From the NCBI RefSeq assembly GCF_002736105.1, contig NZ_CP024123.1, positions 860,001 through 924,000 of the forward strand: 64,000 bases of DNA, in the 5' to 3' direction. The stretch is from Solibacillus sp. R5-41. GTDB taxonomy: Bacteria > Bacillota > Bacilli > Bacillales_A > Planococcaceae. Below the pieces are notes generated by a model. It was not told the origin of the DNA. It saw only the letters and a program-made list of their open reading frames with translations, and made no database searches. This document shows positions 47,144-61,718 of the stretch, one piece after another. The position numbers and the translations under genes were made by a program. Every line of letters begins with the position of its first letter. Position 1 is the stretch's first letter.

Positions 47144-47335
47144 TTTATCATCATTCAGCAGAAAACTCTCTCCTTTTTATAGGTGGTGAGGTGAATGAAA
47201 TTTTAGTCTTTTTTAGTGTGTGTCCAAACACCCGCTGAATGAAGATAAAGCCTCCGGCGTATGTCACAGATTTTGAATTGTGCAAGCACAATTCAAAATC
47301 TGGACGCAATTACGCTAAGGCGTCATTGGTCAATG
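47144..47335 (+). repeat. Composite repeat R2, copy A
   Basis: The left unit (47144-47249) is bounded by inverted repeats TTTATCATCATTCAGC and GCTGAATGAAGATAAA. The right unit (from 47251) has CCGGCGTATGTCACAG, then a perfect 15-bp hairpin (47268-47282 with 47287-47301, loop CAAG), then CTGGACGCAATTACG and a partly decayed GGCGT palindrome. It matches the right units at 52447-52540 and 61623-61713, but the hairpin arms differ in sequence. It lies between the divergent rqcH and yloC genes. Confidence 0.8.
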
Positions 47336-47390
47336 TAAGTTATAGTTGTTCAATTTTCTATAAAAGGTACATACTAATTGGTTTAACATA

Positions 47391-47399
47391 TGATATAAT
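47391..47399 (+). promoter_or_regulatory. Extended -10 promoter element of yloC
   Basis: TGATATAAT is a perfect extended -10, 33 bases before the yloC start. No good -35 is present at the usual spacing, which an extended -10 tolerates. It is just downstream of repeat R2 copy A. Confidence 0.5.
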
Positions 47400-47432
47400 T
47401 GGTGCAATATGCAAAGAAGGGTGTGACGAACC

Positions 47433-48308
47433 TTGGTGCGTAGTATGACCGGATTCGGCAGGGGGGTCACAACGACGAATAGATTTCAACTCACGGTTGA
47501 AATTCGTGCTGTGAATCATCGTTTTTTAGAAATTAATACGAAGTTTCCAAAAGAATGGATGGAATCAGAAATAATTGTGAAAAAAATGTTGTCGGATACT
47601 GTTTCTCGTGGGAAAATAGATGTTATTATTTTTCTAAAAGAGTTGCATAATGCAGAGCAAGTTGTCCGTATCAATTGGCCATTACTAGAAGCGTACTTGA
47701 AAGTAAAAAACGAGCTTTCGCAATCCGTTATGATGGATGCAAAGTGGACAATGCAAGAAATTTCAAACTTGGATCAAGTACTGCAAATCGAAAAAGAAGA
47801 GTTTTTGCTGGAGGAAATTATCCAAGCGGTGAAGGATGCATTAGCACAAGCCATAACAAGTTTAATTACGATGCGTGAGCGTGAAGGACATGAATTGCGC
47901 AATGTTATGCTACATTATAAGGATGAATTGCAGCAGCAAGTTGCTCAAATTAAACAGGGAGCACCACAAGCGGTTGCCAAGTATCGTGACCGTTTAATTG
48001 CGCGTCTACAAGAAATAAATCATGGACAGATGATTGAAGATCGTTTAGTAACTGAAGTCGCATTATTTGCTGAGCGAATTGATATAGCAGAAGAGTTAGA
48101 TCGTTTAGAAAGCCACTTTGTTCAGCTGAAAGAGACGTTAAACGAGTCTGTTGCAATTGGTCGTAAACTGGATTTCATTATGCAGGAGATGCATCGTGAA
48201 ATTAATACGATAGGTTCGAAAAATCAATCGGCAGACTGCTCGATTGCCGTAGTGCAAGCAAAAACGATTTTAGAAAAAATGCGAGAACAAGTTCAAAATA
48301 TTGAATAG
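47433..48308 (+). CDS. yloC: YicC/YloC family endoribonuclease
   Basis: A YicC-family protein (YicC_N plus DUF1727/1732-type C-terminal domain). Family members are endoribonucleases acting on structured RNA. N-terminus RSMTGFGRG and VEIRAVNHRFLEI, C-terminus EMHREINTIGSKNQSADCS, are diagnostic. The start is TTG 47433 or the adjacent GTG 47436, as no ATG gives the conserved RSMTGFG. 291 residues. gmk follows after 17 bases; remA, which lies between them in B. subtilis, is missing. Confidence 0.92.
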   Translation: MVRSMTGFGRGVTTTNRFQLTVEIRAVNHRFLEINTKFPKEWMESEIIVKKMLSDTVSRGKIDVIIFLKELHNAEQVVRINWPLLEAYLKVKNELSQSVMMDAKWTMQEISNLDQVLQIEKEEFLLEEIIQAVKDALAQAITSLITMREREGHELRNVMLHYKDELQQQVAQIKQGAPQAVAKYRDRLIARLQEINHGQMIEDRLVTEVALFAERIDIAEELDRLESHFVQLKETLNESVAIGRKLDFIMQEMHREINTIGSKNQSADCSIAVVQAKTILEKMREQVQNIE

Positions 48309-48325
48309 CTTAAAAGGAGTTACAG

Positions 48326-48943
48326 ATGAAAAAACGACGTGGCTTATTAATAGTATTATCGGGTCCATCAGGTGTTGGAAAAGGAACTGTTCGTAAAGAG
48401 CTATTTTTACAACCTGATACGAACTATGAATATTCGATTTCGATGACAACGCGAAATCCTCGCGAAGGAGAAGTAGATGGTGTAGACTATTTCTTTAGAA
48501 CGCGTGAACAATTTGAAGAATTAATTACACAAGGTGGCTTACTTGAGCATGCTGAATTTGTAAGTAATTATTATGGCACACCGCTTGCCTATGTAAAGGA
48601 AACGTTAGAAGCGGGTCGTGACGTATTTTTAGAGATTGAAGTTCAAGGTGCCGCACAAATTCGAGAAAAAGCACCAGATGCGTTGTTTATCTTTTTGGCA
48701 CCACCAAGCATTTCTGAATTAGAGCAACGTTTAGTTGGACGAGGAACAGAAACAGAAGAAGTTATTGCTCGTCGAATTGCAACAGCTCGTGAGGAAGTTG
48801 AAATGATGAGTTTATACGATTATGTCGTAGAAAACGATCAAGTTCAAAATGCATGTGATAAAATTAATGCCATTATTGTGGCAGAGCATTGTCGCCGTGA
48901 ACGTGTAGAAAAACGATATTTGTCAATGTTGAGAGGAGAATAA
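48326..48943 (+). CDS. gmk: Guanylate kinase Gmk
   Basis: Phosphorylates GMP to GDP. P-loop [12 protein letters not shown] (about 12-23), GMP-binding segment [21 protein letters not shown], and the lid region [15 protein letters not shown]. 205 residues. It is preceded by AAAGGAG and followed after three bases by rpoZ, the conserved gmk-rpoZ pair. Confidence 0.97.
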
Positions 48944-60130: not shown

Positions 60131-60133
60131 ACT

Positions 60134-60799
60134 ATGATTAAAATTGCACCATCCATTTTAGCAGCAGATTTTGCAAAATTAGGTGAAGAAGTAAAAGAAG
60201 TTGAGGCAGCAGGTGCAGAGCTGATTCACATTGACGTAATGGACGGTCATTTTGTCCCAAATATTTCATTTGGTGCGATTGCGCTTGAAGCGATTCGTCC
60301 ATTATCAACATTACCAATGGATGTTCATTTAATGATTGAAAATCCAGATCAATACATTGAGCAATTTGCAAAAGCAGGTGCCGATTATATTACGGTCCAT
60401 GTAGAAGCGTGCCGTCATTTACATCGCACTATTCAGCTAATTCGTTCTTTTGGTGTGAAACCGGGCGTTGTGTTAAATCCGCATACGCCAATCGAAAGTA
60501 TCCAACATGTATTAGAGGATATTGATATGGTGTTATTTATGACGGTGAACCCTGGATTTGGCGGGCAAAAATTCATCCATTCGGTCGTGCCGAAAGTGGC
60601 AGCTTTATCAGAAATAATTAAAGAGCGTAATTTAAATATTGAGATTGAAATCGATGGTGGGATTAACGCAGAAACTATTATTCCATGTGCCAAAGCAGGT
60701 GCTACTATTTTCGTAGCGGGCTCTGCTATTTATGGAAAAGAAGATCGCGCGCAAGCATTACAAGAAATTAAACAATCAGGATTGGACGCTATTAAGTGA
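60134..60799 (+). CDS. rpe: Ribulose-phosphate 3-epimerase Rpe
   Basis: Interconverts ribulose 5-phosphate and xylulose 5-phosphate; a metal-dependent TIM barrel. Conserved: PSILAADFAKLGEEV, HIDVMDGHFVPNIS (metal-binding His/Asp), MTVNPGFGGQKFI, EIDGGIN and FVAGSAIYG. 221 residues. Its stop overlaps the thiN start (GTGA). Confidence 0.97.
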   Translation: MIKIAPSILAADFAKLGEEVKEVEAAGAELIHIDVMDGHFVPNISFGAIALEAIRPLSTLPMDVHLMIENPDQYIEQFAKAGADYITVHVEACRHLHRTIQLIRSFGVKPGVVLNPHTPIESIQHVLEDIDMVLFMTVNPGFGGQKFIHSVVPKVAALSEIIKERNLNIEIEIDGGINAETIIPCAKAGATIFVAGSAIYGKEDRAQALQEIKQSGLDAIK

Positions 60800-61425
60800 T
60801 TGTAGCGATTTGTGCAGGCGGCCCTATAAAAGAGGTCGCCTTTTCTTTAACACCCGATAAATGGATTGGTGTGGACCGTGGGGCTTTGCATTTGATTGAG
60901 CAAGGCATTCGACCGCATACTATTGTAGGTGATTTTGATTCGGTGACAGCAGATGAATTTGCGCGAATTTCAGAAGTTGTCGACCATGTAGAGAAGTTTC
61001 AAGCGATAAAGGATGAGACGGATACGGATTTAGCTTTACAACGAGCATTGCAATATGAACCGACTCAAATTTGGCTTACAGGTGTGACAGGTGGTCGACT
61101 GGATCATTACGAGGCCGCATTACGCTCCATTTATTCGCTTCAAAAACGATTCCCTTCAATCGTGTTTAAAATTATCAATGACCAAAATGAAATGTGTTTT
61201 TTATTGCCTGGAAAGCATTCTTTACATAAAACGGAATATCCGTTCGTATCCTTTTTTGCGTATGGGCAAACAATAAAAGAGGTGACGTTGCGAGGTGTCA
61301 AGTATGAAACGACGAATGAAGTTATTGAACAAGGAACATCCCGCTTCACAAGCAATGAAATCGAACAAGACGGGTATATATCATTCGCTGAAGGCATATG
61401 TTTAATGATAACAAGCAAAGATTAA
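60796..61425 (+). CDS. thiN: Thiamine pyrophosphokinase ThiN
   Basis: Transfers pyrophosphate from ATP to thiamine, making TPP. Start GTG 60796. Conserved: GVDRGALHLIEQGIRPHTIVGDFDSV (about 26-51), ETDTDLALQRAL, and LTGVTGGRLDH. 209 residues. It is coupled to rpe by overlap. No TPP riboswitch precedes it; the salvage enzyme is usually constitutive. Confidence 0.94.
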   Translation: MIVAICAGGPIKEVAFSLTPDKWIGVDRGALHLIEQGIRPHTIVGDFDSVTADEFARISEVVDHVEKFQAIKDETDTDLALQRALQYEPTQIWLTGVTGGRLDHYEAALRSIYSLQKRFPSIVFKIINDQNEMCFLLPGKHSLHKTEYPFVSFFAYGQTIKEVTLRGVKYETTNEVIEQGTSRFTSNEIEQDGYISFAEGICLMITSKD

Positions 61426-61438
61426 AGGGGGAGCCTAG

Positions 61439-61528
61439 CTGAGAGTTTATACTTTTCAATTACCGAGATGGATTAGTGGTATGGCACGAGGATGCGTTAG
61501 ACTATTTAGGAGAGATAAAAAGAATTAA
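61439..61528 (+). CDS. spoVM: Stage V sporulation protein SpoVM (CTG start)
   Basis: A 29-residue amphipathic peptide that marks the convex forespore membrane, recruits SpoIVA and inhibits FtsH. The sequence starts RVYTFQLPRWISGMARG after the initiator and ends FRRDKKN, aligning along its whole length with B. subtilis SpoVM (26 residues, MKFYTIKLPKF...FRKD); Pro9, needed for membrane curvature recognition, is conserved. An in-frame TAG lies immediately before CTG 61439, so CTG must be the start; GGGGGAG (61427-61433) is 5 bases upstream. The position between thiN and rpmB is that of spoVM in Bacillus. Its stop directly abuts repeat R2C. Confidence 0.9.
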   Translation: MRVYTFQLPRWISGMARGCVRLFRRDKKN

Positions 61529-61718
61529 CTTGATTCAGCAGAATTCCTCCACTTCTATAAGTGGGGGATGAATGCCATGTGTGTCCTTATTTCAATGGGG
61601 ATTCAAACCCGGCTGAATCAAGTCAATGCCCCGGCGGATGTCACAGATTTTTAGATGAGTTTTTCGAGTGCATTCGAAAAAAATCTGGACGCAATTACGC
61701 CGAGGCGTAATTGATTGA
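61529..61718 (+). repeat. Composite repeat R2, copy C (without module M)
   Basis: Left unit 61529-61622 with perfect 11-bp inverted ends CTTGATTCAGC/GCTGAATCAAG and an internal hairpin CCTCCACTT...AAGTGGGGG. Right unit: CCCCGGCGGATGTCACAGA, a hairpin with TTTTTCGA/TCGAAAAA arms (61660-61681), CTGGACG, and a palindrome CAATTACGCC-GA-GGCGTAATTG (61692-61713). It begins on the first base after the spoVM stop. Confidence 0.85.

Follow-up and report, generated by a model that had tools for sequence, protein, structure and literature searches.

In this study, we used a comparative computational approach to study R2, a family of composite repeats with three copies (A, B, and C) in a 64,000-nucleotide stretch of the Solibacillus sp. 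R5-41 chromosome (the window; positions 860001 to 924000 of a single 4.28-Mb contig, genome G000). We think that R2 is probably a non-autonomous mobile element of the single-strand type, whose insertion site is chosen by pairing between the target and a guide at the foot of the element's left hairpin. The core of the element is its right unit—a variable-sequence hairpin and a terminal palindrome ending in ..AATTGAT—preceded by a variable left hairpin. The element joins directly behind a TTAA-like or TTAT-like target of 4 to 5 nucleotides (nt), which stays as the left flank. In our model, the target would be chosen by pairing with the guide, and one uninterrupted helix would run through target, hairpin arm, and guide, with the join at its foot. 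We infer that the intermediate would be a single strand that leaves, and inserts into, the template of the lagging strand and that joining would be carried out in trans by an HUH-type enzyme, now lost or unrecognized. If true, a bacterial repeat of very high abundance would naturally use target choice by DNA-DNA pairing extended at a hairpin foot, which has been engineered in IS608, and genomes would directly reveal guide types together with their targets. The window features are given below; the ends of A, B, and C were fixed by comparison with element-free sites, and the names of the neighboring genes are presumptive.

47149..47330, + strand: copy A (TTAT type, 17-bp inner hairpin), with a match to the right-unit model R1 at 47249-47330 (76.4 bits), between presumably rqcH-like and yicC-like genes (names given from the translations, with no family search)
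47144..47148, + strand: presumed target of copy A, the flank letters TTTAT, which are complementary to the guide ATAAA
52294..52540, + strand: copy B (left unit, Bacillaceae-1 module, right unit), R1 match at 52451-52540, between presumably priA-like and def-like genes
52290..52293, + strand: target CTAA of copy B, in which TAA is the stop codon of the gene upstream; the element-free site reads ATCTAA in 14 of 15 congeners and ATTTAA in G003
52380..52445, + strand: Bacillaceae-1 (RF01690) module in copy B, 47.3 bits against a gathering threshold of 35
61529..61715, + strand: copy C (canonical 187-bp form), downstream of a presumably thiN-like gene
61524..61528, + strand: target flank ATTAA of copy C; G003 has ATTAG there, and the joint is ambiguous by one base
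61529..61622, + strand: left unit of copy C, with arms CTTGATTCAGC / GCTGAATCAAG flanking a middle of ∼70 nt
61623..61627, + strand: guide of copy C, TCAAT (in the family usually TTAAT or TTAAA)
61640..61690, + strand: right-unit helix P2 with inner hairpin (GTCACAG..CTGGAC) in copy C; of the 18 pairs in the two helices, 9 show changes on both sides
61692..61713, + strand: right terminal palindrome P3 of copy C, CAATTACGCC-GA-GGCGTAATTG, ending two bases short of the right end; both-side changes in 5 of 9 pairs
37728..37772, + strand: solitary TTAT-type left hairpin with no right unit, a fourth occurrence in the window, upstream of an apparent ABC transporter gene

The R2 family is mobile, and its insertions are lineage specific. 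None of the copies A, B, and C occurs in the orthologous gaps of 15 congeners, which were read by eye, and the gap of copy B is also element-free in G024. Over the fetched regions of 17 genomes, R1, a covariance model of the right unit with 91 positions, found only two right units: one belongs to a different R2 copy, in the gap of G003 that corresponds to copy A (G003 is the closest genome compared, with ∼10% divergence from G000 within the window), and the other lies in a different gap of G015 (L085:3218-3297; L numbers denote individual loci), where the window has none by R1. The flanks of the copy C site match closely in G003, and the element is absent. We further searched the joined flanks of 38 additional copies from G000 in G003 and, partly, in G010, G014, and G015. 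At the joints read (19 copies against G003 and copy B against the 15 congeners), the element begins directly 3′ of TTAA- or TTAT-like letters and ends in ..AATTGAT, with no repeated flank letters and hence no target duplication, and the right end is precise in most copies. A by-eye search for short duplications, in whose flank set the left cut was misplaced in L007, L008, L015, and L128 (L008 and L015 were re-cut for the joint reading), was not supported by the joints. One R2 copy in G003 has a copy of the same 16-bp word on either side and was not counted as a duplication, as the stretch looks tandemly repeated. Elsewhere in G003, an R2 copy (L228/L202) sits in the opposite orientation ∼40 bp from the site of L028 in G000; these are independent insertions in one gap. 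In G014, the rqcH-yicC gap that holds copy A in G000 (L084) carries a ∼2.4-kb insertion with transposase-like open reading frames (ORFs), which we take to be IS66-like.

The flank letters at positions −1 to −5 lie outside the element, being present in element-free sites, and pair with the guide, that is, with the letters following the 3′ arm of the left hairpin. Among filled copies in G000, 60 of 102 have a usable left stem (those of L007, L010, L013, and L160 are probably misplaced and were kept), and in these 60, guide and flank match at rates of 0.90, 0.88, 0.83, 0.75, and 0.48 at −1 to −5 and of 0.10 to 0.18 at −6 to −8. Shuffled guides give 0.66, 0.86, 0.76, 0.71, and 0.41 at −1 to −5, so that the excess is clear at −1 (0 of 5,000 shuffles) and −3 (P = 0.0014) and at none of −2, −4, and −5. 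The element-free sister sites in G003 bear on the state without the element: at 19 of them, 76 of 95 letters at −1 to −5 match the guide of the corresponding G000 copy, against a shuffled mean of 61.5 (P < 5e-5; P = 0.00065 when shuffled within guide type only), with the sister-site letters read by eye from alignments whose query was the filled flank, which may favor agreement. This test left out L002, L003, L010, L025, L029, L119, L142, L149, and L159, which have gaps at the joint; the remaining copies of the 38 queried either lacked a usable match across the site or were left unaligned. Without the five less clean joints (L132, L008, L016, L004, and L001), there are 58 of 70 matches against 47.1 (P = 5e-5; within type, 0.014), and without the three most telling rows (L153, L133, and L132), 61 of 80 against 54.4 (P = 0.0019; within type, 0.038). 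In these three rows, the guides ATGAA (L153), ATAGA (L133), and TTAAC (L132) face the sister sites TTCAT, TCTAT, and GTTAA, respectively. The base at −1 follows the first guide letter across the set, being T for all four guides that start with A and A for 13 of the 15 that start with T; in the other two of these 15, it is C or G. The match in these sites is an association, with pairing as its likely driver in target choice.

R2 copies are also biased in their orientation on the chromosome. With the origin of G000 assumed at the contig start, 101 of 150 right units point with replication (Fisher P = 3.6e-5). Copies between genes of opposite direction follow the replichore in 23 of 33 cases (P = 0.035), and beside leading genes, orientation is 39 to 14 with replication. 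In G237, 112 of 150 scored candidates match, and a single two-replichore split accommodates 87 of these 112, which none of 300 shuffles achieves; the sign of this bias is not fixed.

The right unit, built of helix P2 with its inner hairpin and then palindrome P3, changes in pairs. Covariance between hairpin arms had been proposed in the first-pass annotation of this stretch, and it is borne out across species, with compensated changes in three helices: in 37 right units of several species, 95.1% of cells pair, and both sides have changed in 14 of 27 pairs, a result that 0 of 500 shuffles reach (a control and not a probability). We tested and dropped P1, an outer stem of the right unit, which is 79% paired and has both-side changes in 2 of 9 pairs. 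In the within-genome alignment, the RNAalifold covariation term is near zero because young copies share letters, so cross-species sets are required. Many single copies do carry uncompensated arm changes, which the same annotation had regarded as speaking against its structural claim; such changes are expected of decaying insertions. The arms of the left hairpin vary as pairs as well (among 60 own copies, pair 4 is G-C in 41, C-G in 7, A-T in 3, and T-A in 3), while pair 5 is mostly mismatched and the loop ranges from 3 nt (L119) to about 70 nt.

These structures behave more like DNA than like a conserved RNA. Among 164 aligned right units (two sets of 108 and 56 distinct rows, with copy C in both), single-side stem changes give 80 G-U and 70 A-C, and the same changes at unpaired sites number 217:192 (odds ratio, 1.01). 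In contrast, the S-adenosylmethionine (SAM) riboswitch of the same genus, taken as a control (30 copies, 26 distinct; RNAalifold structure), gives 22:4 by cells and 6:2 by types, whereas the script used for this control yields 66:54 and 16:18 on the two R2 sets. Because the stems lack the G-U bias of the SAM control, we favor a DNA mobile element over a conserved RNA. We see no sign of selection on a transcript of the right unit in place, although decaying copies could mask such selection. Gene context, with neighbors taken as ORFs and no gene caller, could be classified for 96 of 102 copies: 45 are co-directional between two genes, 18 are antisense to both, and 33 lie between opposed genes. 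Many copies may be transcribed, since 45 of the 102 are co-directional between genes. At a loose limit, Rfam gave only one weak match, below threshold, on 61400-61800.

Members of the IS200/IS605 family are not known to duplicate their target on insertion, and R2 resembles them (IS608, ISDra2) in having hairpins at both ends, in that it inserts 3′ of a short target that persists in the left flank, with no duplication at the joints read, and in that its target letters are complementary to an internal guide in element-free sister sites, as an association. In IS608, the target TTAC likewise stays in the left flank and is selected by base pairing (PMC5934647), and IS200/IS605 elements have hairpins at both ends and a lagging-strand bias (PMC5934647, PMC6006769). 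The R2 guide at the hairpin foot resembles an extension engineered into IS608 (PMC5934647). Unlike IS200/IS605 elements, R2 carries no tnpA, none was found in G000, and its target abuts the hairpin with no gap. R2 thus works like an IS200/IS605 element, yet we do not file it as a member because it has no gene, has a 3′ guide, and lacks the gap between target and hairpin. Repetitive extragenic palindromic (REP) sequences with TnpA-REP are comparable as high-copy intergenic palindromes linked to HUH enzymes (PMC6006769); R2 differs in being about 120 to 250 bp long with two ends, in having no GTAG-type foot that we could see, and in that no Y1 protein was found in G000. The repeats bcr1 to bcr18 of the Bacillus cereus group, compared by description only, are intergenic like R2, some MITE-like (miniature inverted-repeat transposable element), some structured, and often within transcripts; they belong to another lineage, and the available part of their description does not mention guide-target pairing (PMC3446304).

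Several results weigh against the single-strand, guide-paired model. (i) No Y1 transposase, which had been predicted, was found in G000 (PF01797, E ≤ 0.001); PF01797 is also absent from the copy-rich genomes G002, G015, and G237 and from G010, G014, and G041, whereas the other 10 of 17 genomes contain it. (ii) No transposase-like cluster of ORFs (≥90 amino acids) stood out 5′ of 286 right units, in flanks that often spanned 1 to 1.5 kb and among the 25 largest clusters, judged by eye; the largest (10 loci) looks like a host ATPase. (iii) The guide of IS608 lies 5′ of its hairpin, whereas that of R2 lies at the 3′ foot of the left hairpin. (iv) At position −2, there is no covariation beyond composition in filled copies or sister sites, and sister-site matches are poor, at 3 of 5 each, for copy C (ATTAG), L004 (TTTAC), L011 (AATAA), L016, L023, L040, and L151, with TATAA sister sites beside TTAA guides in L023 and L040. 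(v) The compared sister sites are not ancestors of the filled sites, and that of L132 has extra bases right of the joint. (vi) A preference for G.T over A.C mismatches, as expected of single-strand use, is not seen. (vii) Beside lagging genes, orientation is 4 to 6, opposite to the trend, and the orientation test rests on an assumed origin in G000, with the origin of G237 not located.

Other explanations can account for parts of these data. The guide could have been rewritten after the fact, if insertion occurred at loosely TAA-like sites by any means and later hairpin repair or template switching copied the flank into the inner arm; odd guides that match odd flanks exactly (GATGAAG in L153, GATAGAG in L133, and GTTAACG in L132) and palindromes that are often perfect (24 bp in L134, 20 bp in L151) fit this idea, yet mismatched pairs persist (in L011, L023, and L040, a TTAA guide faces a TATAA flank) and the GATAA guide is common to many copies in two genera, and we regard rewriting as unlikely. 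Insertion could also be enzyme-poor and driven by the host, with a hairpin single strand annealing by its guide to lagging-strand gaps and then being ligated. The left-hairpin foot would splint a ligatable nick, no transposase was found, and the orientation bias agrees; the precise right end of most copies, however, suggests specific cleavage and makes this scenario quite improbable in our judgment. Spread by reverse transcription or in an intron-like manner, through a reverse transcriptase acting in trans, would be compatible with the lack of duplication and with the orientation bias, but RVT_1 (E ≤ 0.001) is missing from copy-rich G002 and G015 and found once in G000, and the stems show no strand asymmetry, so that we give this route very little credence. 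Taken together, the Y1 and reverse transcriptase searches reveal no consistent partner, which raises the question of which enzyme moves R2.

The first-pass annotation had left the choice between a mobile palindromic element and a structured RNA family. The mobile half of this alternative is favored by the lineage-specific insertions, the at least 150 copies, and the compensated changes, and the RNA half is disfavored by the 80:70 ratio of G-U to A-C and by the 18 of 96 copies that are antisense. That R2 is a structured regulatory RNA family spread through untranslated regions would explain the compensated changes in 14 of 27 pairs, a folding z of about −5, and the copies co-directional between two genes, but it has to accommodate a stem bias unlike the 22:4 of the SAM riboswitch, the antisense copies together with the 33 between opposed genes, and lineage-specific insertion, and we consider it very unlikely; single R2 copies may nevertheless have been co-opted as regulatory RNA. 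If R2 were a classical MITE, with a DDE transposase acting in trans, it would likewise be short, gene-free, intergenic, and present in many copies. However, R2 ends in CTTG.. and ..AATTGAT, has no terminal inverted repeats joining both ends, and shows no duplication at the joints read, which largely refutes this reading and leaves it hardly credible.

The single-strand model also changes how a published RNA family may be viewed. In G000, at least 44 of 99 above-cutoff matches of the Bacillaceae-1 RNA (RF01690) belong to R2, which recasts them as pieces of a mobile element: 39 are followed by a right unit in the same orientation (at a distance of 3 to 6 nt for 36 and of 47 to 48 nt for three) and 5 lie inside a right unit, against a chance expectation of about 0.1 beside or inside right units. 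Two more adjoin short right units that the fixed-length test missed. The other 53 of the 99 are not beside or inside any listed right unit. Whereas RF01690 is known as an RNA, and copy B contains the module above the gathering score, here it is part of a mobile composite, present in about three in ten R2 copies and at times reversed inside the right hairpin. Single-side changes in Bacillaceae-1 modules (18 G-U to 9 A-C; 28 modules, 13 pairs) lean toward RNA, in a sample too small to judge. We tentatively entertain, as possible rather than probable, a broader reading in which gene-less single-strand elements throughout the family carry a heritable DNA guide of 4 to 5 nt at the left-hairpin foot, naturally select their insertion site with it, have diversified in guide type (TTAA, TTAT, and less common words), and depend for movement on an enzyme not recognizable as a Y1 transposase, with Bacillaceae-1 being largely a DNA module of such repeats. 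In G237, 21 of 112 right units span 137 to 148 nt, ∼50 nt more than usual, and five long right units in G000 (e.g., G000:C1:3029084-3029227) contain an RF01690 match, on the opposite strand in four.

R2 is abundant. A BLAST search with copy C (40 scored of 273 candidates) found 39 other copies in G000, 38 nearly full length and one right half, with a best E value of 4.4e-70, and R1 found at least 150 right units, matching 150 of 150 scored candidates (149 at E ≤ 9.4e-7), which excludes that the copies resemble each other by chance. Elements are about 120 to 250 bp long, and the window copies are gene-free at 182 to 247 bp. In the order sample, R1 matches occur in 159 of 261 genomes and 13 of 19 genera, with all listed matches in one family, though the sample may contain no other family of the order; BLAST, a less sensitive search than R1, matched 0 of 16 genomes from other families of the class. 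Record titles among the matches listed include Sporosarcina, Metasolibacillus, Solibacillus, Psychrobacillus, and Lysinibacillus, as well as Bacillus ndiopicus and one Arthrobacter beigongshangensis, which may be misnamed; most of the named records agree with the suggested distribution in Planococcaceae. Plasmid and phage records gave no match, and viral contigs gave one matching stretch. The literature, judged by titles and abstract openings, yielded no description of the R2 family.

Within the window, the three copies first reported at 47144, 52294, and 61529 all stand, with the refined ends given above. Their inner hairpins had been called unrelated in sequence, which applies to copy A only, as B and C are 86% identical over 87 nt, and the inner hairpin of copy A, reported as 15 bp, counts 17 bp here. 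Outer arms that differ as matched pairs are found in A (with one A.A mismatch) and C and not in B, because in B the Bacillaceae-1 module follows GCTGAAT and the long outer 3′ arm is lacking. The words said to be shared by the right units are so overall, with copy A having one change in GATGTCACAG and one in GGCGTAATTG. A 70-nt direct repeat with no visible likeness to R2 occurs at 9814-9883 and 25353-25422 (79% identical). A second repeat family lies at 10143-10385 and 16994-17173, with Bacillaceae-1 inside it at 10225-10291, and in G237, R2 left ends are fused to a module that, judged by eye, resembles this family (L384 and L385). Finally, in L018, L021, L147, L158, L170, L173, and L175 and at window positions 52516-52526, a variant right unit carries letters resembling AAAAGTTAGCC or AAGAGTTAGCC instead of GCAATTACGCC; this variant breaks the terminal palindrome of the right unit and is recurrent across several copies.

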